This document shows, one piece after another, positions 4,673 through 26,060 of a DNA stretch of 64,000 bases. Numbering within the stretch: the first letter of the stretch is position 1; every line of letters begins with the position of its first letter. This DNA is from a virus. The DNA is taken from positions 62,001 to 126,000 of the IMG/VR virus record IMGVR_UViG_3300015261_000002, one strand, 5' to 3'. The notes beneath the pieces were generated by a model. The model was not told where the DNA came from. It did not search any database and saw nothing but the letters and a program-made list of their open reading frames with translations. The position numbers and the translations under genes were made by a program.

Positions 4673-4727
4673 CCGAATGTTCCTTTACAAATATAAAAGA
4701 AAGTAAAAAGCATGGGGTTTCAAGTAG

Positions 4728-4757
4728 ATAATGTAGGTCTGAGTTTAATTATAACTT
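4728..4757 (-). promoter_or_regulatory. phiKZ-type early promoter (bipartite)
   Basis: Minus strand reads AAGTTATA, spacer, then ACCTACATTAT. Same 22-bp geometry as the 2310 site, with C for T at the third position of the core. Start codon of the gene at 4193-4672 is about 55 bases downstream. The region is divergent with the plus-strand gene starting at 4831. Confidence 0.75.
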
Positions 4758-4830
4758 AATGGTATCAGCTATTATATTTTACTTTTGATTTTATGCTCCA
4801 AGACCCCCTGACGCCACTGTGGAACTAAAT

Positions 4831-5409
4831 ATGGCCTTTCCAAACGAACAACTGTTTTTGGACAGGTTTATCGCTTATAATCAAGACCGCTATAAGGATG
4901 AACCGACCTTCGTAAACGCACTCTCAGCCCTGACCCTCGGCCAAGTCACTTTCTCGAATTTCCGTAAAGCGGATAATGCGGGTATCATCACCTACCTTGT
5001 CGATGTTGATTCCCCGTCACTTTTCACCGGAGTCGATCAGAAGTACCAACCAGCCGACTACATTGCCAACGGACCGGCTAACCTGATTGAACCCACGCCG
5101 CTGTCCCTTGCTGATCTTCAGTCGAAGACCGTCCAGGGCGTCTACCTTCTGGTTGGAGAGGGTGATAGCGTGTCGGGGGCGGTTCTGGTGCGTAACGGTT
5201 CGCTAACCGCTGAGGTGGTTTTGCAGATCATTAAGGACAGTTGCAAGTACGTGCTGTCTGACGAAGAGATCACCATCGACCAACAGGTGACTACGGCCAC
5301 CATCGATTCGCATACCGTTGTCGGCTCGTTGACCATTGTCGAGGCTAACTCGACGGCGCGACCGAAGTACGACGGTACCTACAAATATGACGGAACCATC
5401 AAATACTAA
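4831..5409 (+). CDS. Probable virion protein, paralogue of the gene at 23369
   Basis: 192 residues; the ATG at 4831 is preferred over an in-frame GTG at 4819, although neither has a strong ribosome site. Aligns by eye with the minus-strand protein at 23369-23965: FLDRFIAYNQDRYKDE against FVERFVKFNKQRYADD, a common TPL..L motif, then GVYLLVGEGDSVSGAVLV against GLYSYVSGADTLVGVVI and CKYVL against LKYAI. Ends with two copies of KYDGT. It directly precedes the fibre gene by 10 bases, so a tail role is likely but inferred. Confidence 0.75.
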   Translation: MAFPNEQLFLDRFIAYNQDRYKDEPTFVNALSALTLGQVTFSNFRKADNAGIITYLVDVDSPSLFTGVDQKYQPADYIANGPANLIEPTPLSLADLQSKTVQGVYLLVGEGDSVSGAVLVRNGSLTAEVVLQIIKDSCKYVLSDEEITIDQQVTTATIDSHTVVGSLTIVEANSTARPKYDGTYKYDGTIKY

Positions 5410-5419
5410 AGGCTGAGCC

Positions 5420-8400
5420 ATGACTGACATCATTGAAAAGAATGACACGTTTCCCAGCGTCCCGCTTTTGGAGCGGGGGCAAGACGTGGAAGGTGGCGAC
5501 GAAACAGCGCCGTCTAACCTCCAGGCTGTTGCGCTGACGCAGCGTACCGCCTACCTGCACGAACAGTTTCTCAACCTCGTTGTAAACGGCCTGAATGTAC
5601 TCGGCCGTATCACGCAAGCTGAACTGGATGCGCTGCCAGTCGAAGACCTCCATAAAGGCGACGCCTACTTTGTTGAAGGCTCACTGCAAGCTTGGAATGG
5701 CGCCGAGTGGATCAGCTCTGGTTCCCTGTTGGGTCCTCGTGGTATCACCCTGCTCGGCAAGTGGCCTGACAACCAAGCCCTGCCAGATCACACTCTGAAC
5801 GAAGTAGGTGATGCCTACGTCTGGAAGAGCGACATCTGGTTGCTTATCCCTCAGCCAGACGGCTGGGTTACCATCGGCCTGAAAGGCGATGAAGGTAAAA
5901 GCGCCTACGACGTTGCGGTAGCCAATGGCGAAACTGGGACTGAAGTTGAGTGGCTGGCCAAACTGGTCGGCGAATCCGCTTACCAAGCCGCCAAGCGTCT
6001 GAACCCTACCATCGGCACTGAAGCAGAATGGCTTGCCAGCCTGCAAGGTAAAGACGGCGAAGTCGGCAACATCAAGCTGATCGGTCGTCTGAACTCCAAG
6101 GCTGAACTCGATGCCATTCCTACAGCAGGTCTGGACGTCGGTACCGCCTACTTCACAGAAGGTGCGCTGTACATCTGGAACGGCACCGAGTGGATCGATT
6201 CGGGTAGCCTGTTGGGTGACCGCGGTCTGACGCTGCTGGGTACCTGGCCTTCGGGTCAAGCACTTCCAGATCCAAGCATCAACTCCGTTGGCGACGCCTA
6301 CCTGTGGCAGAGCGATCTGTGGATCCTCATTCCAGGTGGTGCCGGCAACGACCCAGAAACCCCTGTGTGGTCTTCGCTGGGTCTGGAAGGACCTGCGGGT
6401 CAGAGTGCTTACGAAATCGCCGTAGAGGGTGGTTTCCAGGGCAACAAGGCACAATGGCTGACCAGTCTGGTTGGTAAGAACAACTACCAGCTCTGGCTGC
6501 AAGCCGGTCACACCGGTACCCTTGATGACTTCCTGGCTACCCTGAAGTCGACCGAACCTGGTCCTCCTGGTGTAGAAGGTCCTGCACGTTCTCCTTTCGA
6601 AGTGAAAGGTACGAAAGCAAGCGAAGCCGAACTGCCTACCCCAGGTGATGCAACTGAAGCCTGGTACGTCGGTAGTCACCTCTATGTTTGGGTAACTGAC
6701 GAAGCCCAATACGTAGACCTCGGTTCCGTTGGCGGTCTGAGCGCCTATGACCTGGCTGTAACCGACGGTTTCTCCGGTACCCTGCAACAGTGGCTTGTTT
6801 CGCTCAAGTCGACTGTGCCGGGCCCTAAAGGCGACCGTGGCCAGAACCTGACTGTTAAAGGTACGGTTGCCAACGCCGCTCAACTGGGTAACATCAACAA
6901 CCCACAAGAGCAAGACGGTTACGTTACCAACGATGACGGTCACCTGCACATCCTCACCGACGCAGTATGGGTTGACGTAGGTCCGTTCCGTGGTCAATCG
7001 ACCTACCAACTGTGGCTGGCTCAAGGTCACAGCGGTTCCGAGAACGAGTTCCTCGTTAGTCTGAAAGGCACCAACGGTACCAACGGCACGAACATCGTCG
7101 TTAAAGGTTCGGTGGCAACTTTCACCGCACTGACCGCTACGCCTGCCGAGCAAGATGTTTACTCGGTGCGCGACACCAATACCCTCTACGCTTACGTAGG
7201 TGGTGGCTGGATCCCGCTGGGTTCCTTCAAAGGTGAAGACGGCCAGAACGGTAACGACGGTGCCAACGGTTCCTCGATCACCATCATCAAGGTGCTGACA
7301 CCTGAAGACGCTACTCCACCCGACGCGTCGGCTAACCCAGGTAAGGCTTACGTCGACCTGGACAAACGCATTCAACTGTCGATTGGCGGTGAGTGGGTTG
7401 ACGGTGGTGCTGTAGGTGCGCCTGGTGACAAAGGTGCCATGGGTACCGGTATCAAGTTGCGTGGTGTGGTGGCAGGTCCTACCTATCTGCCGACGAACAC
7501 TGTTGCTGAAGAAGGCGACGGTTACTTCACCGCAAACGACAAGATGCTCTACGTCCTGACCGACGGTGAGTGGGCTGGTCCGTTCGACATCACTGGTCTC
7601 CCTGGTCCTCAGGGTAAAGACGGTGAGAAAGGTGATGCTGGTACGTCGATCAACATCCTCGGTGCTTACAACACCCTGGCCGAGTTGGCTGCTGCTCTCC
7701 CTACCGGTAACTTGGGCGACGGCTATCTGGTTGGTAACAACCTGGCCATCTGGACAACTGCTGACGGCGGTAAGTGGATCGACATCGGTCTGGTTCGTGG
7801 TCCTCAGGGTATCCAGGGTGTGCCTGGTCCTCAGGGCATCGGCAAGAAAGGTGACAAGGGTGATAAAGGTTCGTCCTGGATTACTCTGCCTGCTGGCCAA
7901 GACGCGCCTGGTGCTGGCTTCACTGGTAACATCGGTGACTGGGCTGTATCGGAAAGCTTCAAGGTCTACTACAAAACGGCAGACCGTGGTTGGGTGTACT
8001 GGGGTCAACTCGTTGCGGGTGATGTTAACTCGCCAGAGCTGTCCGTTGGTAAGGTTGTCCGTCTCGGTAACGAGTGGGTACCTCTGCTGGTAGACGAAGC
8101 GCCAAACATGGTTGACGGTAAACTGTACGTTCGCCAATTGGTAGACGGCAGCACCAGCAACGAGGGCGAGTGGGTTGAGCTGGTATTCCCACCTCAGATG
8201 GAAGAACCGCCTGCTGACGGCAACCCGTACATGCGTCTGCGCTTGAATGGGCAACTCCTCGGTGACTGGGCGAAGTACACGCCTCCTACCCTGACAAGCC
8301 TCGGCGGTGTTCCTACCACAGCGTTGGGTGTCACTGTTGCTACCCTCGTTAACGGCACTGTCCCGGCAGGTCAACTGCCGAGCTATGTCGATGACGTGCT

Positions 8401-9178
8401 GGAGTTCGCTAACCAAGCGGCATTCCCAGCCACGGGTGAAAGCGGCAAGATCTACATCGCACTCAACACCAACGCGCAGTATCGTTGGTCGGGTTCGACG
8501 TACGTCGGTCTGGTGGCTTCCCCAGGTACCTCGGATGCTGTTGTGGAGGGTACCACTAACCTCTACTTCACCCAAGCACGTGTCCGTTCGACTACGCTGA
8601 CTGGCTTCAGCTTGGCATCCGCCACTGCTGTAGTAGCAGCCGATACCGTCATCACGGCGTTCGGTAAGCTGCAAGCTCAGATCAACGCGTTCGTACCAGG
8701 CTTCGCTGACGTACCGACGGATACCAACCTGTATCTGCGTAAAGGTGACCACACGTGGGTTGTCTACACGCCAGTTACTCCTGGTATCTCTGGACCTGCT
8801 GGTGGTGTGGATGGTAAGACCTACGTCTACAAGAACAACAACTGGATTGAATTCAACCAGTACGATCTGGCTATCCGAACTATTTCGGCAACCGCCACGA
8901 TCGATGCATTGGTCGATCAGTTCGTTGTTGTGACCAACACCGGTGCAACTGCAAAAACCATTACCCTGGGCGATGGACCTAAAACCCCTGCTCGGGCCAA
9001 AGTGGTGGTGATGAAGATCAACGGTGCGGCAGGTGTTATTACCTTCGCTGCTACGGGTTCGACCGTGCTGGTTTGGAACGGTGGTTCTCCACCAAGTCTG
9101 ACCGGTAGCCGTACTTACATCACCTTCACCTGGGATGGTGTTGAGTGGACGGGTGCGGCGGGTGCTGTAGTTCCTTAA
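5420..9178 (+). CDS. Modular collagen-like tail fibre
   Basis: 1252 residues. Residues 30-60 (RTAYLHEQFLNLV region) resemble the conserved attachment end of phage fibres. Then follow repeated modules: a 'LLGxWPxxQALP...GDAYxWxSDxWxLIP' unit at about 110-145 and again about 175 residues later; an 'AELDAxP...AYFxEGxLxxWNGxEWIxSGSLLG' unit, also twice; several 'SAYDxAVxxGxxGTxxxWLxxL' units; and short Gly-X-Y collagen tracts such as GPQGIQGVPGPQG and GEDGQNGNDGANG. The last about 110 residues are a different, Gly/Thr-rich beta domain. Collagen tracts and these modules are known from trimeric phage fibres, so this is almost certainly a host-binding appendage, probably trimeric. Start supported by AGGCTGAGCC before the ATG. 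Confidence 0.9.
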   Translation: MTDIIEKNDTFPSVPLLERGQDVEGGDETAPSNLQAVALTQRTAYLHEQFLNLVVNGLNVLGRITQAELDALPVEDLHKGDAYFVEGSLQAWNGAEWISSGSLLGPRGITLLGKWPDNQALPDHTLNEVGDAYVWKSDIWLLIPQPDGWVTIGLKGDEGKSAYDVAVANGETGTEVEWLAKLVGESAYQAAKRLNPTIGTEAEWLASLQGKDGEVGNIKLIGRLNSKAELDAIPTAGLDVGTAYFTEGALYIWNGTEWIDSGSLLGDRGLTLLGTWPSGQALPDPSINSVGDAYLWQSDLWILIPGGAGNDPETPVWSSLGLEGPAGQSAYEIAVEGGFQGNKAQWLTSLVGKNNYQLWLQAGHTGTLDDFLATLKSTEPGPPGVEGPARSPFEVKGTKASEAELPTPGDATEAWYVGSHLYVWVTDEAQYVDLGSVGGLSAYDLAVTDGFSGTLQQWLVSLKSTVPGPKGDRGQNLTVKGTVANAAQLGNINNPQEQDGYVTNDDGHLHILTDAVWVDVGPFRGQSTYQLWLAQGHSGSENEFLVSLKGTNGTNGTNIVVKGSVATFTALTATPAEQDVYSVRDTNTLYAYVGGGWIPLGSFKGEDGQNGNDGANGSSITIIKVLTPEDATPPDASANPGKAYVDLDKRIQLSIGGEWVDGGAVGAPGDKGAMGTGIKLRGVVAGPTYLPTNTVAEEGDGYFTANDKMLYVLTDGEWAGPFDITGLPGPQGKDGEKGDAGTSINILGAYNTLAELAAALPTGNLGDGYLVGNNLAIWTTADGGKWIDIGLVRGPQGIQGVPGPQGIGKKGDKGDKGSSWITLPAGQDAPGAGFTGNIGDWAVSESFKVYYKTADRGWVYWGQLVAGDVNSPELSVGKVVRLGNEWVPLLVDEAPNMVDGKLYVRQLVDGSTSNEGEWVELVFPPQMEEPPADGNPYMRLRLNGQLLGDWAKYTPPTLTSLGGVPTTALGVTVATLVNGTVPAGQLPSYVDDVLEFANQAAFPATGESGKIYIALNTNAQYRWSGSTYVGLVASPGTSDAVVEGTTNLYFTQARVRSTTLTGFSLASATAVVAADTVITAFGKLQAQINAFVPGFADVPTDTNLYLRKGDHTWVVYTPVTPGISGPAGGVDGKTYVYKNNNWIEFNQYDLAIRTISATATIDALVDQFVVVTNTGATAKTITLGDGPKTPARAKVVVMKINGAAGVITFAATGSTVLVWNGGSPPSLTGSRTYITFTWDGVEWTGAAGAVVP

Positions 9179-9188
9179 CCACTCAGTG

Positions 9189-9219
9189 CAGGGGATCTCC
9201 TTTCGGGGATGATCCCCTG
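9189..9219 (+). terminator. Intrinsic terminator after the fibre gene
   Basis: Stem CAGGGGATC with GATCCCCTG around a smaller internal hairpin, followed shortly by CTACTTTTTCC. Lies in the only sizeable gap of the fibre locus, between 9178 and 9249, so it probably reduces read-through into the adhesin array. Confidence 0.7.
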
Positions 9220-9248
9220 TGCTACTTTTTCCTTAAGAGGGAAGCACC

Positions 9249-10259
9249 ATGATTGAACAATTGCTCTCCACGGGAGGACAACAAACGTACATCGGCAACT
9301 CCGGCCCAGGACCTAAGGCCCTGATTGCTGGTGATGCCACACTGGGCTATTTCGGTGAAGTGACCGATACCCAGCTGTTTACGCCGGCTCAGGTTGCTGG
9401 GCAGGCTGGGTTGTACTTGGGAACGGACAACCCTACCGCTGTATCGGCCGCTAATGGAAACATGTGGCTGAAGTTTATCTGGAACGGCAAAGTAATTTAC
9501 ATCGCTAAAATGCCTTTCCGTACGAATATCTCTTGGGCTGATTTGTATGCTGCGGGATTGGTCTACGGGACTCGGGACAACGGTAAGTATCCCCAGTCAA
9601 CCGCCAAGTTCCAATACATCCAGATGCCTAAGTATGAAGGTCAGAAGTTGTGGGTATTGAAACCACGTCTTCCAACCGGTTACCCAGCAGATCCGACCAC
9701 AGGCGGCATCGTGCTTACTGGGGAATGGAACCAGTTGTTTGGTCGTACTGTTAACGATACAAACGGCGGCGTCGGTGCTCCCAAGTTTGCAAACTTTAAC
9801 TACGCCGCCACAGGGATGTCTCCATCGTCAGGTCCTGATAGTCTTGTGCAAGAGACCATCACGTCTAACATCAACCAGTGCATTGTTCGTGGTGATGGTG
9901 GTGGCGCGCAGATCCTGACTGCTGCGAGGACGATACTGAAAACGGATAAGAGTTCCGGGACACTGGCAGCTCATGGCTGGCGACCTGTATTGGAACTTAT
10001 TCCCGATACTGTGGCTAAGGACCCCTACAGCCTTTTGTATAACTCGGTTGCGCCATTCTCTCCCATTATCAATGATGTGAGACAGTGGTCGTTGGGGGCT
10101 ATCCGTCCTGCCAACCCAGGTCAGCGGAATTGGCAGTATCAGTTGCCTCAGGTCACCTACAGCTTTGCCAACCAAGCGCTGAGGCCTACGGCTATCAGAG
10201 GAACCAGCGAGTCTCCCACACTCAAGGCCTTCACCATCTCTGGGTCTTACGTCGCTTAA
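9249..10259 (+). CDS. Tail adhesin-like protein, paralogue 1 of 4
   Basis: 336 residues, AAGAGGGAAG ribosome site. Contains the core shared by the four tandem genes: GPGPKAL, GDATLGYFG, WLKFIWNGKVIYIAK, ISWADLYAAGLVYG, and near the end of the core AHGWRPVLELIP. Unlike the next three genes it lacks the FN3-like N-terminal part (the core starts about residue 20) and carries an extra 80-residue C-terminal extension rich in Pro, Asn and Gln. The family is not one I can name. Position directly after the fibre suggests a receptor-binding or decoration role. Confidence 0.8.
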   Translation: MIEQLLSTGGQQTYIGNSGPGPKALIAGDATLGYFGEVTDTQLFTPAQVAGQAGLYLGTDNPTAVSAANGNMWLKFIWNGKVIYIAKMPFRTNISWADLYAAGLVYGTRDNGKYPQSTAKFQYIQMPKYEGQKLWVLKPRLPTGYPADPTTGGIVLTGEWNQLFGRTVNDTNGGVGAPKFANFNYAATGMSPSSGPDSLVQETITSNINQCIVRGDGGGAQILTAARTILKTDKSSGTLAAHGWRPVLELIPDTVAKDPYSLLYNSVAPFSPIINDVRQWSLGAIRPANPGQRNWQYQLPQVTYSFANQALRPTAIRGTSESPTLKAFTISGSYVA

Positions 10260-10269
10260 GGAATGAAAT

Positions 10270-11220
10270 ATGGATACGGTATTAAACTGGACGAACCTGA
10301 ACGCTCCAGGTACGTTCACTACAAAGATCTACCGCGGTACTGCTCCGCTCGATCGCTCCAGCCTGGCTAACCCCATTGCAACACTGTCTGCGGGTGAGAG
10401 CACTTACACCGACACCACCACGGTTCGCGGCACGCAGTACTACTACGTGTTCGAAACCACGCTAAACGCCAACGGCGATAAGCAGAGTTCCAACAACATC
10501 CCGATCCTCGCCGCTCCTCGCAAAGGTCCAGGTCCGGTAACGGTCGCTATTGGTGACTTCACCTATGGTTACTTCGGCACCTTAACCTCGGGTGAGCTGA
10601 TCAACACCAACGACTTGCGTACTGCGGTTGGGCTGACGGTCGGCACCGTTAACCAACAGGGTCCTCTGTGGCATAAGTGGATTCGTAACGGCAAGGTGAT
10701 CTACGTCCCTAACGGACCACTCAGTGGCAACGTTAGCTGGAAGACCCTTTACGATCTGGGTCTGGTGTTTGGTGTGGATGGGCCTGGACCTTACAACGCT
10801 GGTGCTAACGTTAACCAAAGTGCGAAAATCACTATTGGTGGCGAACAGTTCCGCGTGCGTTGCATGACAGGTTTCGACGATACCCTCGCCCGCTTCCCGG
10901 TCACGCCTGCGTCTACCGAGCCAACCGAACTGTGGCCAAACGAGTGGAATGATCTTGTTTACCCACTGTCTATGTACTGCCCAGATCTCCAGCGCATGGC
11001 CAACGTCCAGCAGGCCACGGTTGCAGACCTGGGTATGGCTCTGACGGGTGTAACACTTGGCTCCATTGTTCAGGAGCGTGTGTCGGCTGTAGCGGCGTCC
11101 AACAACCTGATCCGTGGCAACACATCGGCTAACCGGACGGGTATTGCCAACCGGAACGCAGCGACCTACAACGGCCTGTCTTACGGCTGGTGGCCCGTCC
11201 TGGAACTAATGGACAGCTAA
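10270..11220 (+). CDS. FN3-plus-adhesin protein, paralogue 2 of 4
   Basis: 316 residues, TAAGGAATGAAAT before the ATG. Residues about 1-80 look like a fibronectin type III fold: a TYTDTTTVRGTQYYYVF strand pair typical of FN3 C and E strands, and a final strand ending SSNNIP. The core follows: GPGPVTVAIGD, YGYFGTL, HKWIRNGKVIYVP, VSWKTLYDLGLVFGVDGPG, and a terminal SYGWWPVLELM. 10 bases separate it from each neighbour, so it is part of one transcript. Confidence 0.8.
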   Translation: MDTVLNWTNLNAPGTFTTKIYRGTAPLDRSSLANPIATLSAGESTYTDTTTVRGTQYYYVFETTLNANGDKQSSNNIPILAAPRKGPGPVTVAIGDFTYGYFGTLTSGELINTNDLRTAVGLTVGTVNQQGPLWHKWIRNGKVIYVPNGPLSGNVSWKTLYDLGLVFGVDGPGPYNAGANVNQSAKITIGGEQFRVRCMTGFDDTLARFPVTPASTEPTELWPNEWNDLVYPLSMYCPDLQRMANVQQATVADLGMALTGVTLGSIVQERVSAVAASNNLIRGNTSANRTGIANRNAATYNGLSYGWWPVLELMDS

Positions 11221-11229
11221 GGAGTTTGT

Positions 11230-12174
11230 ATGTCAATCAAAATCGATTGGCTGCCGATGACGGCGGATGCACTGACGCTGTATTGGTCGGACTCTCCGTT
11301 TACGTGGTCTGCTCTACCCGCTACAAAGGTCGTGTTAGGCCCTACCGATGTGACCTATACCGATACCACGGTTCCGGACCGAAGTGTTCGTTATTACATG
11401 CTGGAGGCTGTTAAAGCAGGCGCTACAACGCAATACAGCCAATGCATGCAGTACGGCAACTTCTCCAAAACAGGGCCGGGTAACAACACCGTTCTGCGGG
11501 GTAATTGGAACGCTGGGTACATGGGCTTTGTCCCTACTGCTCAGATGCTTACCATTTCCCAGCTGAGAACGGCGGTGGCTGCAACAGGCGTGGGCGGTGC
11601 TCCAGCTGACAGCACGATGACAGGTTGGTACAAGTTTGTCTTCAATGGCAAAATCTTGTTCTTCCCGAACAACATCTGCTGCACACAGGGTACCGCGACT
11701 TGGTCTCAGTTGTATAACCTCGGCTTGGTCTACGGCGTTGACGGTCCTGGTGCCGCTCCCTTCAGCCTCACGGCAGTAGGCGCACAACCAAACATCCCAA
11801 CGACGGTTAACCAGAAGAAAGTGGTTACGGTGGGCAGCGACAGCTTCCTGGTGCGATTACCCAAAAACTCCACACTGGCAACCGATCAGAACGTACCTGA
11901 CCGCACAACGTTCAAGAATAGCGAATGGTGCGAACTCATGTGCTCGCTGACCGCGTCCATTCTTGCTGCTGACGTTCCATTGCTGCAACCGAACAAGTGG
12001 AGTGATATCGCAGGTGTGCCTTATCCATTGGCGGCCACGCAGCACTTCAACGGGACCAACAACTGGTCGGTGAGTAACAGCAACTGGTCTGACGTCTTCC
12101 CCCGAGCCATTACCGGTTCGGCAGCAGGCGCCTGGATTACATGGGTCCCTGTTCTCGAATACATTCCTGCTTAA
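11230..12174 (+). CDS. FN3-plus-adhesin protein, paralogue 3 of 4
   Basis: 314 residues, TAAGGAGTTTGT before the ATG. FN3-like N-terminus (VTYTDTTVPDRSVRYYMLEA), then the array core: GPGNNTVLRGNWNAGYMG, WYKFVFNGKILFFP, ATWSQLYNLGLVYGVDGPG, ending WVPVLEYIPA. The stretch between core motifs differs strongly from the other paralogues in length and composition, including two adjacent Cys (NNICCTQG), consistent with diversification of a binding surface. Confidence 0.8.
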   Translation: MSIKIDWLPMTADALTLYWSDSPFTWSALPATKVVLGPTDVTYTDTTVPDRSVRYYMLEAVKAGATTQYSQCMQYGNFSKTGPGNNTVLRGNWNAGYMGFVPTAQMLTISQLRTAVAATGVGGAPADSTMTGWYKFVFNGKILFFPNNICCTQGTATWSQLYNLGLVYGVDGPGAAPFSLTAVGAQPNIPTTVNQKKVVTVGSDSFLVRLPKNSTLATDQNVPDRTTFKNSEWCELMCSLTASILAADVPLLQPNKWSDIAGVPYPLAATQHFNGTNNWSVSNSNWSDVFPRAITGSAAGAWITWVPVLEYIPA

Positions 12175-12185
12175 CGGAGGGTTAA

Positions 12186-13088
12186 ATGCCCATCAAAATT
12201 GATTGGACCGACCCTAACACGGCGGACGACTACACGGTCTACCGGGCTAACTCGCCGATTGCCGATGGTGCACTTCCTGCATCACTGGCAGTTGTTCCGG
12301 CAGGCACGCTGACGTACACCGACAACACCGCGGTGCGCAATCAGGTGTATTACTACCGGGTGGCGTCCCGTAAGGGGTCTGATATTGCGCTGACACCTAA
12401 CAAGGTATTGGCGTACATGCCTTACACCGGCCCTGGCCCACAGGCTTTGCTACGGGGTGACTGGAACTTCGGTTACTTCGGTAAGCTGCAAATGTCCGAC
12501 TTGTTCACCACTCAAGAGTGCAAGAACTTTGTTGGAACGATCACCACGCAAACAGAAAACACCGATGCCACTATGGGTTGGCTTAAGTTTGTGTATAAAG
12601 GGAAGATTCTCTTTATTGCAAGCCAAGCGCTCTATTCTTCCATCACCTGGGAGCTGTTGTATAAAGCTGGCGTGATCTACGGTAATTTCCCAAGTGCTGA
12701 TTGGGCCCCTACCGCTAAAACCAGCTACGGTACCATTCCCCAGGCCAAAACTGTGAGCAAGGGCGATCACTCGTTTGTCATGCGAGTCCCAACCTCGCGG
12801 GCAGTGATGGCAAGTACCAGTGGTGCGGCGGCTGATCAAATTGGCGGCGAATACGATCTGATCCTTCCCTACGCGTTCCAGGTTCGCAACTACCCTGATA
12901 CGCTGGGGTTCAAACAGTTCGACGACCTGGTCAACGCCAGTTGGATTACGTTCTCCACTGATCTTCAATCCAACGTCTGTATCAACCGTGGTAGCGGTAC
13001 AAACCCAGACCTGCTCAACGTAAGTTTGGCAATTACTGCCACGCATCCCAACCACGGCTGGCGCCCTCTCTTCGAACTCGTCCTTTAA
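12186..13088 (+). CDS. FN3-plus-adhesin protein, paralogue 4 of 4
   Basis: 300 residues, ACGGAGGGTTAA before the ATG. FN3-like N-terminus (LTYTDNTAVRNQVYYYRVAS), array core GPGPQALLRGDWNFGYFG, WLKFVYKGKILFIA, ITWELLYKAGVIYG, ending NHGWRPLFEL. The shortest of the four. All four share fixed framework motifs with variable connectors, as seen in duplicated receptor-binding proteins. Confidence 0.8.
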   Translation: MPIKIDWTDPNTADDYTVYRANSPIADGALPASLAVVPAGTLTYTDNTAVRNQVYYYRVASRKGSDIALTPNKVLAYMPYTGPGPQALLRGDWNFGYFGKLQMSDLFTTQECKNFVGTITTQTENTDATMGWLKFVYKGKILFIASQALYSSITWELLYKAGVIYGNFPSADWAPTAKTSYGTIPQAKTVSKGDHSFVMRVPTSRAVMASTSGAAADQIGGEYDLILPYAFQVRNYPDTLGFKQFDDLVNASWITFSTDLQSNVCINRGSGTNPDLLNVSLAITATHPNHGWRPLFELVL

Positions 13089-13097
13089 GGAAACATC

Positions 13098-13751
13098 ATG
13101 AGTACAGTAACTCGTACCACCCGCCTGATTCATTCTGATTCGGGCGCTTACCCGATCTACTTGGCCGATATGGCCAAGTATCAACCAAACACCTGCTTCG
13201 GCCCAACGGTTGAATCGGACTTGCTTTTCGAACTGGGCTTCGAAGTGGTTCATGACACCGCTGCTCCTACCGGTGATGTGGTCACTGAAGGCGCTCCAGA
13301 GCTGCGTGAGGGCGAATGGTACCAAACCTGGGTCGTACGCTCCTTCAACGAAGTAGAGGCCGCAGGGCAGCTCCAGGACCGCAAGACGATGCTTGCTGCT
13401 CAAGCAGAGTCGCTGCGCATTGCTGCGTTCGCCAAGGGTTTCCCTTACCAGTTCGATGGTGGCAACGTCTACCACGTCCAGGTGCGCGCTTCTGACCGTG
13501 GTAACATTTCCGACCTGCGTACCATCGCCAAGGAAATGATCGCAGCCGGGGTCGAGATGACCTTCCCGTTCCGTGTGTTCGAAAACGTTTCGATCAGCCT
13601 GACTGCTCCAGAAATGGTAGCACTGGCCGACAAGACGTTCCAGCAAGTGGTTGCCGGCTACAACGTATCGTGGGCTTACAAAGACGCGATCGCTAACGCC
13701 GAGACCATGGAGGAACTCCCAGCTGCGCCTGCGGACTACTTCACGCTGTAA
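13098..13751 (+). CDS. DUF4376-like tail-fibre-associated protein
   Basis: 217 residues, TAAGGAAACATC before the ATG. The C-terminal 110 residues have the pattern of DUF4376 domains: a stretch with R/K then AAFAKGFPYQFDGG, VQVRASDRGNISDLR, and a final ATG-like helix (DKTFQQVVAGYNVSWAYKDA). Such domains are frequent in or beside phage tail-fibre assembly proteins. The N-terminal 100 residues include a WYQTW strand. Assembly chaperone or accessory to the four upstream adhesins is a reasonable inference. A terminator-like hairpin follows. Confidence 0.7.
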   Translation: MSTVTRTTRLIHSDSGAYPIYLADMAKYQPNTCFGPTVESDLLFELGFEVVHDTAAPTGDVVTEGAPELREGEWYQTWVVRSFNEVEAAGQLQDRKTMLAAQAESLRIAAFAKGFPYQFDGGNVYHVQVRASDRGNISDLRTIAKEMIAAGVEMTFPFRVFENVSISLTAPEMVALADKTFQQVVAGYNVSWAYKDAIANAETMEELPAAPADYFTL

Positions 13752-13757
13752 ACATAA

Positions 13758-13782
13758 CCCCTCCTTCTTTAGGGGAGGAGGG
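13758..13782 (+). terminator. Possible terminator
   Basis: CCCTCC and GGAGGG can pair around a 12-base loop, with an alternative CCCCT/AGGGG pairing, followed by GTATTTAAT. The stem is weaker than the others of the window and the T-run is short. Confidence 0.45.
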
Positions 13783-13815
13783 TATTTAATCTACTAATGC
13801 CAAGTGGCGGCCAAA

Positions 13816-14541
13816 ATGATAGAATGTCTATTACCGACTCCACAAGTCGTCGAGCAGCCCCCAGATTTACCAGGTGTGTTTTTATTCGATCATGAGACAC
13901 GCACCGACTTGATAAACAACAACGCCACGGTGTCACTTTCCGGGGCAACGGTAGATACGACCTATTTGATCGATGGGCACCCTACCACCAAACTGCCGAG
14001 CATAACCAGTTACTTGCTTATCACATTCCCGAATCCGCTTGAGTTAGATAATAGTGATTGGACACTTGAGTGGTCGTGCATGGCAACTGCATTTCAGGCA
14101 ACTCGTTATGACGGCGAGATGAGAGGATTGACCACAACAGGTAAAGCTTTAATCTCTCGTTGGACTGATTCTGGCTACGGCTCCCAATTACAGTCATTTG
14201 TAGGCGGCGGTGCGACAGAAGACCTGCTATGGCGAATCCCTGGCTCTAAGCAAAGTGTTGTAAACCAACTCAGACGTATGGCGCTGGTTTGCAAACAAGG
14301 TGTTGTGACTGTATTCAAAGATGGTGTTCCCCAAAAGGTAACTAACTGGAACATTGTCGGTGGATCGGGTAACCAGGTTACACGGAATAACTTCAACAAA
14401 GAAACGGTAGTGGGTAAGCTAAGTTCAATCCGACTGGGTTGGATAAGTACCACTGCACCTGCTGCTATTTCCAACGTAGGGCGTATCCGTTTTAGCGATT
14501 ATGCGCGATACATATTCCCCTACACACCTACACCGTTCTAA
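13816..14541 (+). CDS. LamG/concanavalin-like virion protein
   Basis: 241 residues from the ATG at 13816 (an in-frame GTG at 13804 is the alternative; neither has a good ribosome site). Mostly beta: DWTLEWSCMA and a terminal IRFSDYARYIFPYTP are typical of the strands of LamG-like jelly-roll domains found in phage structural and adhesion proteins. An acidic LFDHETRTDL segment starts the fold. Probably a carbohydrate- or receptor-binding part of the tail; the domain call is by pattern only. Confidence 0.65.
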   Translation: MIECLLPTPQVVEQPPDLPGVFLFDHETRTDLINNNATVSLSGATVDTTYLIDGHPTTKLPSITSYLLITFPNPLELDNSDWTLEWSCMATAFQATRYDGEMRGLTTTGKALISRWTDSGYGSQLQSFVGGGATEDLLWRIPGSKQSVVNQLRRMALVCKQGVVTVFKDGVPQKVTNWNIVGGSGNQVTRNNFNKETVVGKLSSIRLGWISTTAPAAISNVGRIRFSDYARYIFPYTPTPF

Positions 14542-14553
14542 AGGGAATTTCAC

Positions 14554-15012
14554 ATGAGTACATTTACGCGATTCAGCGCTGAAGAACAACTGCGTTATAA
14601 CAAAACCGCCAGTGTGCTTAACAACAAGGATATCTGGGACACCATACCAGGGTTTCGTTATTACATTGGTGAAGAAAACTCGACCCGGTGGGTTGACGTA
14701 GAAACAGGCTTCCAAACGGACGGTGCCACCATCCCACGTTTCTTGTGGTGGCTACTTCCTCCGATTGGTGAATACACCCAAAACACCACCCTCCACGACA
14801 AACTGTGCACCACGTACCTCATTACCGAATTGGTGAATGGTGTTGAAACTCAAGTTGCGATTACGCGCAAAGAGATCGACGCCATTCTGAAAGAGTCCAT
14901 GGATGTGAGTGAAGTCACTCCGTGGAAAAAGAAAGTCATCATGATCGGAGTCAACTTGCACCGACTGGTAAATAACCCTACCAAACCAAAGCCTGTAGCG
15001 TTAGCCGCATAG
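14554..15012 (+). CDS. DUF1353 family protein
   Basis: 152 residues. Carries the family signature: GFQTDGATIPRFLWWLLPP, then GEYTQNTTLHDKLC, where the invariant Asp, the Pro-Arg-hydrophobic run and the HD pair are all present. DUF1353 proteins are common in phages and prophages, often near tail genes; their function is not established. The C-terminal part carries a basic helix (PWKKKVIMIGVNLHRLV). AAGGGAATTTCAC precedes the start. Confidence 0.8.
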   Translation: MSTFTRFSAEEQLRYNKTASVLNNKDIWDTIPGFRYYIGEENSTRWVDVETGFQTDGATIPRFLWWLLPPIGEYTQNTTLHDKLCTTYLITELVNGVETQVAITRKEIDAILKESMDVSEVTPWKKKVIMIGVNLHRLVNNPTKPKPVALAA

Positions 15013-15036
15013 GACGTCAATACTGCGTCCGATCTT

Positions 15037-15055
15037 GGGCGGGGAAAACCCGCCC
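15037..15055 (+). terminator. GC hairpin, weak terminator candidate
   Basis: GGGCGGG, loop GAAAA, CCCGCCC: a very stable 7-bp stem between two plus-strand genes. No T-run follows on the plus strand, so it may instead affect messenger stability or processing. Confidence 0.4.
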
Positions 15056-15083
15056 CTCCTCCCACCTTTAGGACGCACTTGAA

Positions 15084-16022
15084 ATGATCGAAGCGTTGAT
15101 ATCCGCAATTAAGCAAGTTGTTAGAGACATCATTGAAAAGGCTTGGGTAAACAGTACTGCATCGGGTCAATTCAGTTTGCAGTATGCGGTGAGCCAAGTC
15201 GACAGCACCATCTATTTATTTGGCGGTCGCGTGGGTGTCTCCACGACAGGTCGGAGTACCTGCTACAAATACAGCAACAATGCATTTACTGCGATCGCGT
15301 CACTCCCCACAACGCTCGTTGCGGCGTGTTCAGCAGTCGTTGGCAGAAAGATCTACATCTTTGGTGGCGCCGGTGCAATCACAGCGGGTACCGAGAGCAA
15401 GAAAGTTTACATCTATGACATCGACGCCAATTCATTCACAACGGGTACGGACATGCCCGTTAACTGTGTTGTGGGGTCTTGTGCTGCGGTAGGCACTGAC
15501 ATTTACGTGTACGGCGGTATGAACAGCATGACGGAAACGGGTTTTCCTAAACTGTTCTACAAGTACGACACAGTCGCCAAGACTTGGACTTCGCTGCCGT
15601 ACCATGACGGCCAGGCCATGTTGTCGACGAACATCCTCAACATGGGTGGGTTGTTGTATGCGTTTGGCGGCGAGTATGCTAACGCCGGAAGTAACGAAAA
15701 CGACGTTCGGGTATTTGACCCTGTGGCGGTCTCTTGGAGCAAACCTACTGTGTCTGGGACCAAACCCCAAGTTCGCGGCGCCTGTGCAATGATCAAATAC
15801 GACGAGACTCGGTTTATCATCCAGGGAGGGCGCTCTGGTAGTGGAACGAACGTTCTTGCGGACGCATGGGTATTCGACATTGTCTCGAGGGTCTGGACTG
15901 CTTTGCCCTCGCTTACCAAACTGGCCTTCCACCGAGGAGGTTTGGTAGCGAACAACGACGTGATTGTGTTCGATGGTTACAATGGCACCAACACCACGAC
16001 GCTTGCTTACCGTTTGCAATGA
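15084..16022 (+). CDS. Kelch-repeat beta-propeller protein
   Basis: 312 residues. Five clear kelch blades are seen by their double-glycine ends: IYLFGGRVG, IYIFGGAGA, IYVYGGMNS, LYAFGGEYA and FIIQGGRSG, with a sixth degenerate one (VIVFDGYNG). Each is followed by the usual Tyr...Trp spacing (YDTVAKTWTSLP, VFDPVAVSW, VFDIVSRVWTALP). About 30 residues of helix precede the propeller and could anchor it. Kelch propellers are binding platforms; in a fibre locus the likely role is glycan or receptor binding. Ends at a convergent terminator. Confidence 0.85.
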   Translation: MIEALISAIKQVVRDIIEKAWVNSTASGQFSLQYAVSQVDSTIYLFGGRVGVSTTGRSTCYKYSNNAFTAIASLPTTLVAACSAVVGRKIYIFGGAGAITAGTESKKVYIYDIDANSFTTGTDMPVNCVVGSCAAVGTDIYVYGGMNSMTETGFPKLFYKYDTVAKTWTSLPYHDGQAMLSTNILNMGGLLYAFGGEYANAGSNENDVRVFDPVAVSWSKPTVSGTKPQVRGACAMIKYDETRFIIQGGRSGSGTNVLADAWVFDIVSRVWTALPSLTKLAFHRGGLVANNDVIVFDGYNGTNTTTLAYRLQ

Positions 16023-16044
16023 AGCAAAAAATAAAGAACAGGCT

Positions 16045-16078
16045 AACTACCCTCACCCCGCAAAGGGTGAGGGTAGTT
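16045..16078. terminator. Bidirectional terminator at convergent ends
   Basis: Perfect 14-bp stem AACTACCCTCACCC with a 6-base loop CGCAAA, between the plus gene ending at 16022 and the minus gene ending at 16087. Separates the fibre locus from the early-type block. Confidence 0.8.
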
Positions 16079-16086
16079 ATAGCTAC

Positions 16087-16281
16087 TTAGAGATTCAACT
16101 CCGCTTCGAGCCCTTCAATCACTTCTTCAAACGTACCAGTGATCTCAGGATCATCATCGAAGAACCCACACCACAGTTCCTCTACTGGATCGTACTCCAG
16201 TGTGATACCCAGCCCCTGCTTAGAGCATTCGCGGGTGATTTCACTGAGACGCTCTTCTACAGTCATTTCTACTACTGGCAT
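16087..16281 (-). CDS. Small acidic protein
   Basis: 64 residues, strongly acidic (FFDDDPEIT, FEEVIEGLEAELNL) with one central Cys and one Cys near residue 19. GGGGACAAAGC precedes the start. No family recognised; last gene of the leftward run before the convergent terminator. Confidence 0.65.
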   Translation of the reverse strand: MPVVEMTVEERLSEITRECSKQGLGITLEYDPVEELWCGFFDDDPEITGTFEEVIEGLEAELNL

Positions 16282-16335
16282 GCTTTGTCCCCTTACATAG
16301 CTGCTGGCGTTTTTATTTCAAGCGTAAGATTGTAG

Positions 16336-16788
16336 TCACGCCTTAGCTGCAAGGATGTGGACCATCGGGTGGGTATACAAAGGCACGAGTATTTCTTTCT
16401 CGTGGATGCGAAAGAACATCAGCGAACCGCTGAGACCCTCGGTACGTTCCAACTCAACGTGGAGAAACAGGTTATGCCAGCGACCACTCAGGGTAGCCTT
16501 GTAATCCACAGCACCTTTATCGAAGTACTGGATAAAGAAGCCGCTTACCAGGTCGTAGTATTCGATCGCTACTTCACGATCGTCCATCACGAGTTTCTTG
16601 AACAGCGTTTCGATAGCTTCTTCTACCGAGTGGGACGGTTGTTCGATCAGGTAAGCAGTACCGCCACGATTCGGGGTGCTCGACACCATGTAAGAGGTCC
16701 GGTGCCCTTGGGAGGACATGTACAGTTGTTGACCATTGTCGAGACGGAAATTAGCAACCATGTGGTACTTGATTTGAGTGTTAGACAT
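16336..16788 (-). CDS. Hypothetical protein, paralogue of 16804
   Basis: 150 residues. Shares with the adjacent upstream gene the pattern VEEAIETLFKKLVMDDRE..YYDLVSGFFIQYFD, matched there by FEEAWEHLFEALVLDGRM..YNRISFLFIWYFN, and an ending VPLYTHPMVHILAAK matched by VPLADHPLVGLLRK. Tandem duplication is therefore clear. Function unknown; the shared core looks like a small alpha/beta domain. Confidence 0.75.
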   Translation of the reverse strand: MSNTQIKYHMVANFRLDNGQQLYMSSQGHRTSYMVSSTPNRGGTAYLIEQPSHSVEEAIETLFKKLVMDDREVAIEYYDLVSGFFIQYFDKGAVDYKATLSGRWHNLFLHVELERTEGLSGSLMFFRIHEKEILVPLYTHPMVHILAAKA

Positions 16789-16803
16789 TTTGAGCCTCTT
16801 AAC

Positions 16804-17391
16804 TTATTTGCGCAGCAAGCCAACAAGCGGGTGATCCGCCAGGGGTACTGCGACAGGTTGGGAACCAGCGATAGTCACCTTAACGGCACGTTTGCCGATC
16901 TCGGGTAACCATTCAAACAATACTTGTTTCTTTACACCACGCCAGAAGCCTTCTGTGGCGCGTACAACGGGTTGCTCCTCGATCTGGTTGAAGTACCAGA
17001 TAAAGAGAAAGCTGATGCGGTTATAGAGTGCGATAGACGGCATACGACCATCCAGCACCAAAGCTTCAAACAAATGTTCCCACGCTTCCTCAAAGGTAGC
17101 CGAAGAACCTTGAAGCACATACGTATCACGACGACCTGTCATGGTAGTCCAATAGTAACGGGTGTAATGTCCGTCACTCATGGCAATCAGGTTACCGTGA
17201 GCACTTTGGGTAACGCCGTAGAACTTGATAGGTTCACGGAGACCGTGGCGAATCAAGATCGTGTGTTGCTTTTGACTCCAGTGTACTGAGCGAGTAATGA
17301 TCTCTCCATTTTCACGTGCTACTTTGAACTGAGCTTCTCCCGCATCTCGTAGGGGGAAGTCGTTGGTGTAACATAACCCTTTAGAAATCAT
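16804..17391 (-). CDS. Hypothetical protein, paralogue of 16336
   Basis: 195 residues. The C-terminal two thirds correspond to the 150-residue protein downstream. The additional N-terminal part includes a repeated strand pattern with TRSVHWSQKQHTILIR and YTRYYWTTMTGRRDTYVL. No known domain. It starts 3 bases after the stop of the gene at 17395, within a tight operon. Confidence 0.75.
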   Translation of the reverse strand: MISKGLCYTNDFPLRDAGEAQFKVARENGEIITRSVHWSQKQHTILIRHGLREPIKFYGVTQSAHGNLIAMSDGHYTRYYWTTMTGRRDTYVLQGSSATFEEAWEHLFEALVLDGRMPSIALYNRISFLFIWYFNQIEEQPVVRATEGFWRGVKKQVLFEWLPEIGKRAVKVTIAGSQPVAVPLADHPLVGLLRK

Positions 17392-17394
17392 CCT

Positions 17395-17976
17395 TTACTC
17401 CTTCTTTGCTTCTGCGGTTCTCACGGTTACCCCGTACGGTTTCTTTACTTCAACCAAGGTAGGGTCGAAGGCGATATAAGCGCCCATGCCTTCGGTCTCG
17501 TACGTGTAACCTTCAGGAAGCTCCTTGGTAAGCGACGAAACATGCTTATCGGATAAAGGGCCGCCCACCATCGGCGTAACCTTAACGACAAGCTTACCCA
17601 GTTCAGAACGCCCAACGACCTCGTGAGCAATATAGAACGTAGGCCGTACATCCAAACCTACTGGTGCAGGCGCTTGGGATTTAACCCAAACAATCTGACC
17701 GACATGATTAACAACCAGATCGATGACAAGCTCACGTAGTCGACGGTATTCAGCCGCGCTCTTTGCAACCTGAACCTGACGTTCTTCGTGGAGAGGTTTG
17801 TTGTACTTCTGCACGTGTCGTCGAACTTTGGCCAGGCGCGAGAGAGCGTTACCGGGAAGACCGGGCTCACGGCAACCCTCTTCCAAGTTACGCGCATGAG
17901 TGGCAGCCATGCTGTACAGCTCGTCATACATCTCACGAGCCATCACGACCTGGTGTTTATCTTTGTTCTCTTTCAT
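17395..17976 (-). CDS. Hypothetical protein
   Basis: 193 residues. The frame is open to 18015 but the ATG at 17976 overlaps the stop of the preceding gene by one base (TAATG), the usual sign of translational coupling. N-terminal half helical and basic (RLAKVRRHVQKYN), C-terminal half a beta-rich domain with MVGGPLSDKHVSSL and EGYTYETEGMGAYIAFDP. No family recognised. Confidence 0.75.
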   Translation of the reverse strand: MKENKDKHQVVMAREMYDELYSMAATHARNLEEGCREPGLPGNALSRLAKVRRHVQKYNKPLHEERQVQVAKSAAEYRRLRELVIDLVVNHVGQIVWVKSQAPAPVGLDVRPTFYIAHEVVGRSELGKLVVKVTPMVGGPLSDKHVSSLTKELPEGYTYETEGMGAYIAFDPTLVEVKKPYGVTVRTAEAKKE

Positions 17977-18698
17977 TACCCCAACGCTCCCATTGCTAAC
18001 ACATCCTTTTTGCACAACGTCAGTGCGCCATCCAACATGCCAGGCAGGTCAACGTGCATGAATGTGTAAAAGCCAATCGGGGTGCTCGGGTAGAAAGACA
18101 ACTCGAAGACCTCGTTACGATCTACCATTTGCTGTCCAAGCCCGGGTGTTATTTCGGCATCGCCGTCTTCATCCGCTTCGAAGCGGTCCGGGTTCATGAC
18201 GAGAAGATCGCGCAGATACTCCTTCGCGTGCATGTCATAGACGGCACACTGTTTTTCAATGTCCCAGTGCTTGGCTTTGAACGGGTTGATGTCCAGTGTT
18301 ACAGAACATTTGGCAGTAGCGATGAGTTCAGCCAAGGTGTCTGTCCAATTAGCGCCATCCACAGCCCACGCCGCACAACCCTTGATGCGCAGTTCTTTCA
18401 TCCGCTCGTAAGCGACTTCCAGGACTTTTTCCAGAGTAGCCCCGATGAAGCAAAGCTCCTCCTCTTGATCTTCGGGGTTATTTGGCACGAGGTCTACTCG
18501 GATCAGCGTGTTGGTGGCAACCATCTCCGCCCGTACTTCAGGAGTAATTGCCGCAACAGCTTCAGGGTTGTGCTTGGCCAACCCCGCTAACTGTTCTTCG
18601 ACCGTGTCGTAAACGTCACGATGGTCGTTAGCGTTTACAGAGATCTTGCCTTTGCAGATAGCGTACAGCAAACGCAGGTAATCGATTTTAATACCCAT
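17976..18698 (-). CDS. Hypothetical protein
   Basis: 240 residues, acidic centre (NNPEDQEEELCFIGATLEK), then a helix-rich segment and a C-terminal strand region (FELSFYPSTPIGFYTFMHV). AAAGGAATAAAG precedes the start. Not recognised. Coupled to the next gene through a TAATG overlap. Confidence 0.75.
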   Translation of the reverse strand: MGIKIDYLRLLYAICKGKISVNANDHRDVYDTVEEQLAGLAKHNPEAVAAITPEVRAEMVATNTLIRVDLVPNNPEDQEEELCFIGATLEKVLEVAYERMKELRIKGCAAWAVDGANWTDTLAELIATAKCSVTLDINPFKAKHWDIEKQCAVYDMHAKEYLRDLLVMNPDRFEADEDGDAEITPGLGQQMVDRNEVFELSFYPSTPIGFYTFMHVDLPGMLDGALTLCKKDVLAMGALG

Positions 18699-24299: not shown

Positions 24300-25979
24300 T
24301 TACGACTGGATATGTACCGCAGCCAGTTTGTCCCCGATCAAAACGCTATCGAGGCTGGCCAGGATCTTGGCGGTTTGCATGCCACCGCGCAGTGCAGTGA
24401 TCGACGCATACGCCGTGTCGAAGATCCCCAGTTCAAGAGCAGTACCGTAGGTGTTGTCGCGCAGGTTCATCACCTTGATAGGAGCAGGTTCGTCCATATC
24501 AAGTACCTTACCAGTAATCTGGCTACGAAGGTCACGTTTCTTTGCTTCTTCGTTGCGAGTATCGGTAGGTAGGATGAATTCACCTTGCAGCAGCAGGTAC
24601 TGCGAGAAGATCACTTCTTCCATCACTGCGATGATCTTCTTGAACTCTGGATCTTCCTCTTCCTCATCAGTCAGACCGTTGAGTGCAAACACACCCGCTG
24701 TGATCAATGCAGTACCCACACCCGGCAGTACACCGTTGACCAACGCCGACTTAACGGCTTTCGAAACGTCTTCGAAACGGTCGATACGTTCTTTGATCTC
24801 GGACTGAGTTTCACCGCCAACAAACACAGTGATCAGCTCACCCTTCAGATCACGGATACGCTTCTCGTTGAACGCCGCCCGAATACTGAAACGTTCGCCA
24901 CGTTCGTAACTGTTGAGTTCCTTCTCGATCGCGGCTACCTGATCCTGGATACGCTGCAACGTTGCTTTATTAGTCGGCTCAAAGATCGAGCGGACAGAAC
25001 CCAGGTGCAGTGGTTCAACGCAACGCTTAGATGTCACGTTGACGATGTCGGAGAACACCTTCACCATGGGCGCATCCAGGAGCACCGAAATGTCCTGCAT
25101 GAGCAGCGTACCAACCGAACCGCCGAAGTTGGTCTGGGCGCAGATAAACGCCTGACGTTTAACCTGGTTGTTGACCTGCAAGATGATGCTGTTAATGGCG
25201 TTGTCAAAAGAACGAGCAATCAACAGAATTGGGTCGGGATGCTCTTCAATCAACTTGGCCAGGATCGGACCCAGAACACTCGCGTCCATATGGCGGACGT
25301 TGTCGTCAATAATAAACGGTACAAACCCGACGAATTCAGATGTCGCGCCGTTACCGTTCTTGGAGAAGGACGGGTTGCTGAAGATCAGGTTAACGGCCAG
25401 ACCGTTGCTACGAACAATCTGGTCATCGCCGCCCAGGCCTTCCTTGAGCTCGATCTCAGGGTATTTGTCACCGGCACTGTGATAGATGTCGGTAATAACC
25501 TTTGCGAGCTTCTCGTCGCCGTTGGAGGACGTCAGGGCCAGGTTGTACAGCTCTGGGCTACCGTTGGTAACCTTCTGCGACAGACGGGCCAGTTCGTCGA
25601 TGGTTTTGTTACACAGCTTGTCGATGAACTTGCGTTCACGATAGCGAGGGAACTGCGAGTACAGACGATACAGCTCTGCGGTGAGCAGAATGGTGGTTGT
25701 GGTGCCGTCGCCGCATTCATCATCGGTCTTGATTGCCGGTTCCAGAATGATGCGGTTGATGGCTTCTTCAAACGGGTTGACGAACTTCAGGGACTTGGCG
25801 ACTGTTACACCGTCTTTGGTTACCTTCACCGAGGTACCCACTGTGATAGCCGAGAGTTTGCCATTTGGACCCATGGTGGCAACGACCGCATCGCGTACGT
25901 CAGTCATTACATCTTCGACAACGTCTTGTGTATTGCGACGCTCACTGTGTTCGCCCTGGTTGGAAAGCTGCATGTACAT
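24300..25979 (-). CDS. groEL: GroEL-type chaperonin
   Basis: 559 residues, the length of group I chaperonins. Folds proteins by ATP-driven encapsulation. Visible signatures: VATMGPNGK near residue 34, KVTKDGVTVAKSL at 52-64, the ATP-binding GDGTTT at 90-95, a FEDVSKAV segment corresponding to the catalytic Asp398 region of E. coli GroEL, and LPGVGTALI, corresponding to VAGGGVALI. The apical domain is divergent and there is no Gly-Gly-Met tail. The start at 25979 is chosen because GGAG precedes it; the frame stays open to 26138 but that would run into the neighbouring gene. No GroES is seen in this window. Related phages EL and OBP carry such a chaperonin. It has its own promoter and terminator. 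Confidence 0.95.
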   Translation of the reverse strand: MYMQLSNQGEHSERRNTQDVVEDVMTDVRDAVVATMGPNGKLSAITVGTSVKVTKDGVTVAKSLKFVNPFEEAINRIILEPAIKTDDECGDGTTTTILLTAELYRLYSQFPRYRERKFIDKLCNKTIDELARLSQKVTNGSPELYNLALTSSNGDEKLAKVITDIYHSAGDKYPEIELKEGLGGDDQIVRSNGLAVNLIFSNPSFSKNGNGATSEFVGFVPFIIDDNVRHMDASVLGPILAKLIEEHPDPILLIARSFDNAINSIILQVNNQVKRQAFICAQTNFGGSVGTLLMQDISVLLDAPMVKVFSDIVNVTSKRCVEPLHLGSVRSIFEPTNKATLQRIQDQVAAIEKELNSYERGERFSIRAAFNEKRIRDLKGELITVFVGGETQSEIKERIDRFEDVSKAVKSALVNGVLPGVGTALITAGVFALNGLTDEEEEDPEFKKIIAVMEEVIFSQYLLLQGEFILPTDTRNEEAKKRDLRSQITGKVLDMDEPAPIKVMNLRDNTYGTALELGIFDTAYASITALRGGMQTAKILASLDSVLIGDKLAAVHIQS

Positions 25980-26030
25980 GGGGTGAATCTCCATAGCTGG
26001 GTTTGGACATAAAGAATGTAATTCACGGTA

Positions 26031-26060
26031 ATAATGTAGGTTTGAAACTCTTTTAAGCTT
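26031..26060 (-). promoter_or_regulatory. phiKZ-type early promoter of the chaperonin gene
   Basis: Minus strand reads AAGCTTAA, spacer, CAAACCTACATTAT. The upstream box overlaps the last codons of the gene at 26053-26694. The chaperonin start codon is about 52 bases downstream. Confidence 0.8.

Follow-up and report, generated by a model that had tools for sequence, protein, structure and literature searches.

Four tandem paralogous genes and their family

The stretch of viral DNA analysed here, referred to as the window, spans 64,000 nucleotides, from base 62001 to base 126000 of the virus record IMGVR_UViG_3300015261_000002, which is 224,747 bp long. Four tandem genes, here called g1 to g4, occupy positions 9249-13088 of the plus strand (Table 1), and their open reading frame coordinates leave gaps of 9-11 nt between them. 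Alignment of the four proteins gave pairwise identities of 27-33% and 25 invariant columns, and in tblastn searches each of them recovered orthologs and paralogs (E <= 1e-12), so their likeness is not due to chance. No other copies of the family were found in the record. An earlier reading of the bare sequence (the original prediction) had proposed four consecutive paralogous genes, and the coordinates, the identity of about 30% and the invariant columns confirm it. It had also listed framework motifs shared by all four. The motifs W.K(F/W), GK(V/I) and (S/T)W..LY..G(L/V)(V/I).G are indeed common to g1-g4, and related C-terminal motifs are found in each (GWRPVLEL, GWWPVLEL, TWVPVLEY and GWRPLFEL, from g1 to g4), but GYFG is present only in g1, g2 and g4, being replaced by GYMG in g3.

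All four proteins matched phrog_1062 and phrog_3589 (E 5e-27 or better), and, among named phages, these genes have their nearest relatives in jumbo phages akin to phiKZ, Noxifer of Pseudomonas and PhiEaH1 of Erwinia being examples. A DNA-level search of the phage collection gave no match. A family profile detected SPN3US gp145-153 (E 5e-28 to 9e-51), PhiPA3 080-083, 201phi2-1 gp452 and gp456, and, in the phiKZ-like phage fMGyn-Pae01, a Kelch fusion of the phiKZ gp83 type; SPN3US gp138-144 were not detected. SPN3US gp138-154 have been described as a 17-member family of head paralogs (PMC5105663), and 'Paralog family B' of the same phage as 20 members present in tailless particles (PMC5694885). 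On the strength of these matches, g1-g4 join an already published family, that of PHROG 1062/3589 and SPN3US Paralog family B, as new members; the original prediction had not recognised the core family. In phiKZ gp83-type proteins, the same core is fused to Kelch repeats.

FN3 heads and predicted fold of the core

Residues 1-82 of a g2 structure model, built from 28 sequences, matched the FN3 domain of the pectate lyase Pel3 (Z 9.2, root mean square deviation (rmsd) 2.2, 77 residues), and the FN3 assignment was supported by sequence too (E 9e-5 with the family profile). Together with the alignment of g3 and g4 to g2, this agrees with the FN3-like heads that had been predicted for three of the genes, the first lacking the domain and being extended at its C-terminus instead.

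As the g2 model was too weak beyond FN3 and the framework to identify the core, a second model, from 91 sequences, was made for g1. Its predicted local distance difference test score (pLDDT) was mostly above 90 in the core (residues 11-255) and below 50 in the C-terminal extension of about 80 residues. Nearly all of the 45 PDB entries listed for this model were C-type-lectin (CLec)/formylglycine-generating-enzyme (FGE)-like, including the Lcl C-terminal domain (Z 7.6), PvdO (7.6), Bd2740 (7.4), EgtB (7.2) and TvpA (7.1), with SenA, CarF, formylglycine-generating enzymes, CEL-IV and a snake-venom C-type-lectin-like protein as further matches; we take all of these to have one shared fold. Nearly all the matches stop at model residues 250-256, in the strand formed by WRPVLELIPD. 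In the g1 and g2 models, strands and helices follow each other in the same order, the g2 model being the weaker of the two, which bears out a single core in both.

In sequence searches of the PDB with the family profiles, FN3 domains were the only significant matches and the core had none. No C-type lectin or FGE model of Pfam or NCBIfam matched the core at useful E-values, and Pfam over the 91 family members returned one stray Mtd_N match (E 0.009). Therefore, the fold is put forward as a structural resemblance, with no claim to membership of a named CLec family, and, since the single Z values are weak, it is the coherence of the match list that argues for it. On this basis, the family core is predicted to adopt the C-type-lectin/formylglycine-generating-enzyme fold.

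Homology of the core with targets of diversity-generating retroelements

A plasmid search revealed that the Halomonas qaidamensis protein K1Y77_RS17265 matches the family profile (E 1.9e-53) and g1 (E 4e-31), and aligns with g4 over 99% of its length. Its gene lies directly upstream of those for a bAvd protein (PF22296) and a reverse transcriptase (PF00078), and carries at its 3' end a 100-nt variable region (VR) with a template repeat (TR) 532 nt downstream, 14 of the 15 mismatches between both falling at TR adenines, as in a diversity-generating retroelement (DGR). Three viral contigs share this target/TR arrangement, with a reverse transcriptase confirmed in two of them; taken with the Halomonas locus, TR adenines account for 55 of 59 mismatches (p ~ 1e-29), the four loci being close relatives of one another and so not fully independent. 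At the end of its VR, the DGR homolog has GWRPALEL, which corresponds to g1's GWRPVLEL, and a phage search with the Halomonas target recovered the jumbo-phage family. Judged by these alignments, the core of g1-g4 is homologous to DGR targets, including the motif at the end of the VR, and this kinship would lend the predicted fold independent support.

The Halomonas plasmid (NZ_CP080628.1; 45.9 kb, phage-plasmid-like) holds a complete DGR with target, bAvd, TR and reverse transcriptase (L066:11887-14669), the last annotated merely as 'reverse transcriptase/maturase family protein'. A prophage-like 45-kb contig encodes a protein closely homologous to the DGR target (L068:5001-6053), with no TR found in the stretch examined, a possible case of DGR loss.

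No PF00078 match to a reverse transcriptase was found in the record of the window phage, nor in 24 related or family-bearing records (25 jumbo-phage records in total, none positive), and no TR with adenine-specific differences was found within window positions 4700-18000. A DGR in the window phage was thus rejected and, as its record has no reverse transcriptase, g1-g4 were not classed as DGR variable proteins.

An ordered cassette inherited largely as a unit

A tree was built from the core only, leaving FN3 out, for 127 family proteins from 36 cassettes at 26 loci. Types were given by gene position alone, except for A, the member without FN3. Position required 5 changes on the tree (minimum 3) versus a mean of 68.3 after shuffling, and type B, with all 36 of its rows, formed one side of a single branch (Shimodaira-Hasegawa-like approximate likelihood ratio test, SH-aLRT, 88). 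The cassettes come as A-B-D or A-B-C-D, many phages having A-B-D only. On this tree, gene position predicts phylogenetic type, and the A-B-(C)-D order is ancient. A recent tandem duplication of g1-g4 was rejected, as the tree separates them into ancient position-specific types.

Two cassettes are present in PhiEaH1 and in the phage loci L032, L034 and L035, and three in SPN3US, phiEaH2 (EaH2) and Phobos. The A, B and D copies of L032 and L035 pair first with first and second with second cassette. Among SPN3US, EaH2 and Phobos, the first cassettes group together for A, B and D alike, and the third cassette of EaH2 pairs with the third of Phobos; no clear pairing of copies between cassettes was seen for PhiEaH1 and L034. 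From their branching, A, B and D were duplicated mostly together as one unit. Inheritance of the cassette largely as a unit suggests that its members would work together.

Divergence of the array between close relatives

Compared with five close relatives, each of g1-g4 in the window was 65-90% identical, with similar values for neighbour genes. Mean amino-acid identity was 0.81-0.84 in the core framework and 0.63, 0.81, 0.71 and 0.75 in the C-terminal variable segments of g1, g2, g3 and g4, respectively; for the last 35 residues before the C-terminal motif, it was 0.61-0.76 compared to 0.80-0.83 in the framework. No hypervariability or positive selection was seen in g1-g4, the nonsynonymous divergence (dN) being 0.08-0.34 and synonymous differences near saturation. 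The connectors, described as variable in the original prediction, do change faster than the framework, but only moderately. The originally predicted repertoire is not supported as one that is diverging now: each position holds an ancient orthologous type with synonymous change near saturation, and variation in the VR-equivalent segments is mild.

Turnover between relatives sits elsewhere, in the gap between the fibre gene and g1 and in the gene slot following DUF1353. In relatives, the former holds a core protein of 417-696 aa, which has Kelch repeats in one of them (L028, on the same contig as L009). The slot after DUF1353 is occupied in the window by a Kelch beta-propeller protein (15084-16022).

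Other genes around the cassette

The window also encodes a 245-aa protein (13804-14541) that matches phrog_3545. As the C-terminal region of a core fusion at another locus (L031) matches the phrog_3545 profile and, weakly, Laminin_G_3, the window protein may be a detached lectin-like domain. Upstream of the fibre gene, a 196-aa protein (4819-5409) matches the N-terminal part of phrog_21620, which other phages carry joined to this core. A GroEL-like chaperonin gene lies at 24300-26138 (phrog_5725, E 8e-116). The 'tail sheath' protein of Noxifer had no match in the record of the window phage, and this label was not used.

Table 1. Coordinates of the cassette genes, their parts and the adjoining genes in the window.
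Feature	Position	Strand	Size	Description	Basis
Fibre gene	5420..9178	+	1252 aa	Directly upstream of g1; short collagen-like triplet runs; phrog_3904 'tail fiber protein'	
g1	9249..10259	+	336 aa	Type A; CLec-like core without FN3, ~80-aa C-terminal extension	
g1 core	9276..10013	+	residues 10-255	Predicted C-type-lectin/FGE-like fold	Structure model
g1 VR-equivalent segment	9873..9977	+		Placed like a DGR variable region, directly before WRPVLEL	Position
g2	10270..11220	+	316 aa	Type B; FN3 + CLec-like core	
g2 FN3	10270..10521	+	residues 1-84		Structure model + sequence
g2 VR-equivalent segment	11083..11187	+			
g3	11230..12174	+	314 aa	Type C (optional position); FN3 + CLec-like core	
g3 FN3	11230..11478	+	residues 1-83		Alignment to g2
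g3 VR-equivalent segment	12037..12141	+			
g4	12186..13088	+	300 aa	Type D; FN3 + CLec-like core	
g4 FN3	12186..12431	+	residues 1-82		Alignment to g2
g4 VR-equivalent segment	12954..13058	+			
DUF4376 gene	13098..13751	+		Next gene after g4 (9-nt gap); position relative to the cassette shifts in relatives	

Putative role of the cassette

With a probability of roughly 0.55, we interpret g1-g4 as CLec ligand-binding virion proteins of a phiKZ-related jumbo phage, co-assembled as A+B+(C)+D, most likely on the head, where they would aid adsorption. This interpretation builds on the family membership, the FN3 domains, the homology of the core with DGR targets, the cassette order and the co-duplication observed here, on the CLec fold predicted by modelling, and on the literature on homologs for presence in the virion and location on the head. 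Each protein would present a CLec surface, set in g2-g4 on top of an FN3 spacer. As the cassette has mostly been passed on, and in places duplicated, as one unit, its members most likely assemble together, probably as a hetero-oligomeric knob or short spike of A+B+D with C optional. Such a structure would sit exposed on the virion, the head being its most likely place as for the SPN3US homologs, and its several different CLec surfaces could bind glycans or proteins of the host surface or the environment.

Of the original proposal of adhesin-like, receptor-binding proteins, the adhesin-like core stands, as it is homologous to ligand-binding proteins diversified by DGRs and has a C-type-lectin-like predicted fold, so 'adhesin' is a plausible label for g1-g4. 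A receptor-binding role specifically at the tail is not supported, the studied homologs being assigned to the head. The head assignments of the SPN3US family were mostly retained with a second tailless mutant, gp237 being moved to the tail (PMC10052503), and according to record notes, 201phi2-1 gp452/456 were detected in virions by mass spectrometry. A head location is favoured by analogy because direct data on SPN3US homologs place them there.

Several observations speak against the interpretation as ligand-binding head proteins. The fold matches of g1 (Z 5-7.6) lie in the range where chance matches arise, the best Foldseek match of its model (TvpA, E 0.023) is not significant alone, and no CLec model matched in Pfam over the 91 family members. 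In places, the nearest partner of a cassette varies by gene, as for the C type of L032/L035 and for the second and third cassettes of SPN3US versus the second of Phobos, where the A pairing is slightly unlike that of B and D. Moreover, four-member cassettes poorly fit a simple heterotrimer, the cassette adjoins fibre and DUF1353 genes labelled as tail proteins, and the SPN3US authors marked gp141, gp143 and gp160 of family B as 'Head ejection?'.

As a collagen-like fibre lies next to the cassette, a tail location is the main rival: g1-g4 could be the tips of that fibre at the tail or baseplate, a classical receptor-binding module, which we consider rather unlikely. The phrog_3904 fibre gene is immediately upstream of g1, related fibres, by similarity, precede the cassettes of Noxifer, PhiEaH1, SA002 and RVTF4, and DUF4376 and DUF1353 genes are neighbours; besides, Legionella Lcl, a C-type-lectin-like trimeric adhesin, unites such a lectin part and collagen-like repeats in one protein (PMC11162425). 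However, tailless-mutant proteomics placed the SPN3US homologs gp145-153 in the head, and the stretches examined around the cassettes of SPN3US, EaH2, Phobos and SNUABM_37 showed no fibre resembling it. The ejection marks mentioned above would fit internal head proteins that are packaged and then ejected into the host, but gp141 and gp143 were not detected by the family profile, modules of the FN3, CLec, Kelch and ConA-like kinds typically belong to binding proteins that are exposed, and the existence of DGR homologs implies that selection acts on an exposed surface for binding, so this explanation appears improbable. We give similarly little credence to a purely structural decoration (cement), for which the CLec fold would be only a stable scaffold without ligand. 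The good conservation of orthologs, much of the VR-equivalent segment included, and the 25 jumbo-phage records without reverse transcriptase are consistent with cement; against it, the VR-equivalent segments change somewhat faster than the framework, the position-specific types keep very different loops and the DGR relatives diversify the same segment.

More tentatively, and with the odds against it, ligand-binding head proteins of this kind could be part of a wider scheme, in which giant phages carry a fixed 'germline' set of CLec paralogs in place of a DGR, as a capsid-surface A-B-(C)-D hetero-oligomer that grows by whole-cassette duplication and serves as the head's own host-attachment system. 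In 2021, a survey reported that FGS (C-type-lectin-fold) domains were absent from 224 jumbo phages (PMC7824862); the domain would thus have escaped notice. The fold, the relationship to DGR targets and the rule of cassette order appear to be new, none having been found described for this family in the open-access literature. If the interpretation is right, a large paralog family of giant-phage virions with unknown function gains a fold, a common origin with DGR targets and a role that can be tested, and the way gene order is conserved in the cassette suggests that a defined hetero-oligomer is formed.

Comparison with known systems

SPN3US Paralog family B (gps 83, 138-154, 161, 237) resembles g1-g4 in its homologous core and tandem cassettes, and its members are virion proteins of phiKZ-related giant phages, to which the source phage of g1-g4 is likewise related. 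SPN3US, however, has three three-gene cassettes and the window phage one four-gene cassette, and A-type proteins of SPN3US reach 470-498 aa, with long extra domains that g1 (336 aa) is without. In Noxifer, gene products 133-136 follow a fibre gene in A-B-C-D order, as in the window, with 35-42% identity position by position, whereas its DUF4376 gene precedes the cassette instead of following it. The C-terminal domain of Legionella Lcl (8q4e) is the joint best structural match to g1 (Z 7.6, rmsd 4.6, 118 residues); in Lcl, collagen and lectin parts are fused in one protein, whereas in the window they are encoded by separate genes, with no detectable sequence similarity to Lcl. Finally, the DGR variable proteins (K1Y77_RS17265 and, structurally, TvpA, 2y3c) share a core homologous over its whole length, with a shared C-terminal GWRPxLEL that closes the VR of the DGR proteins, but DGR systems have one mutable gene where the window phage has several fixed paralogs.

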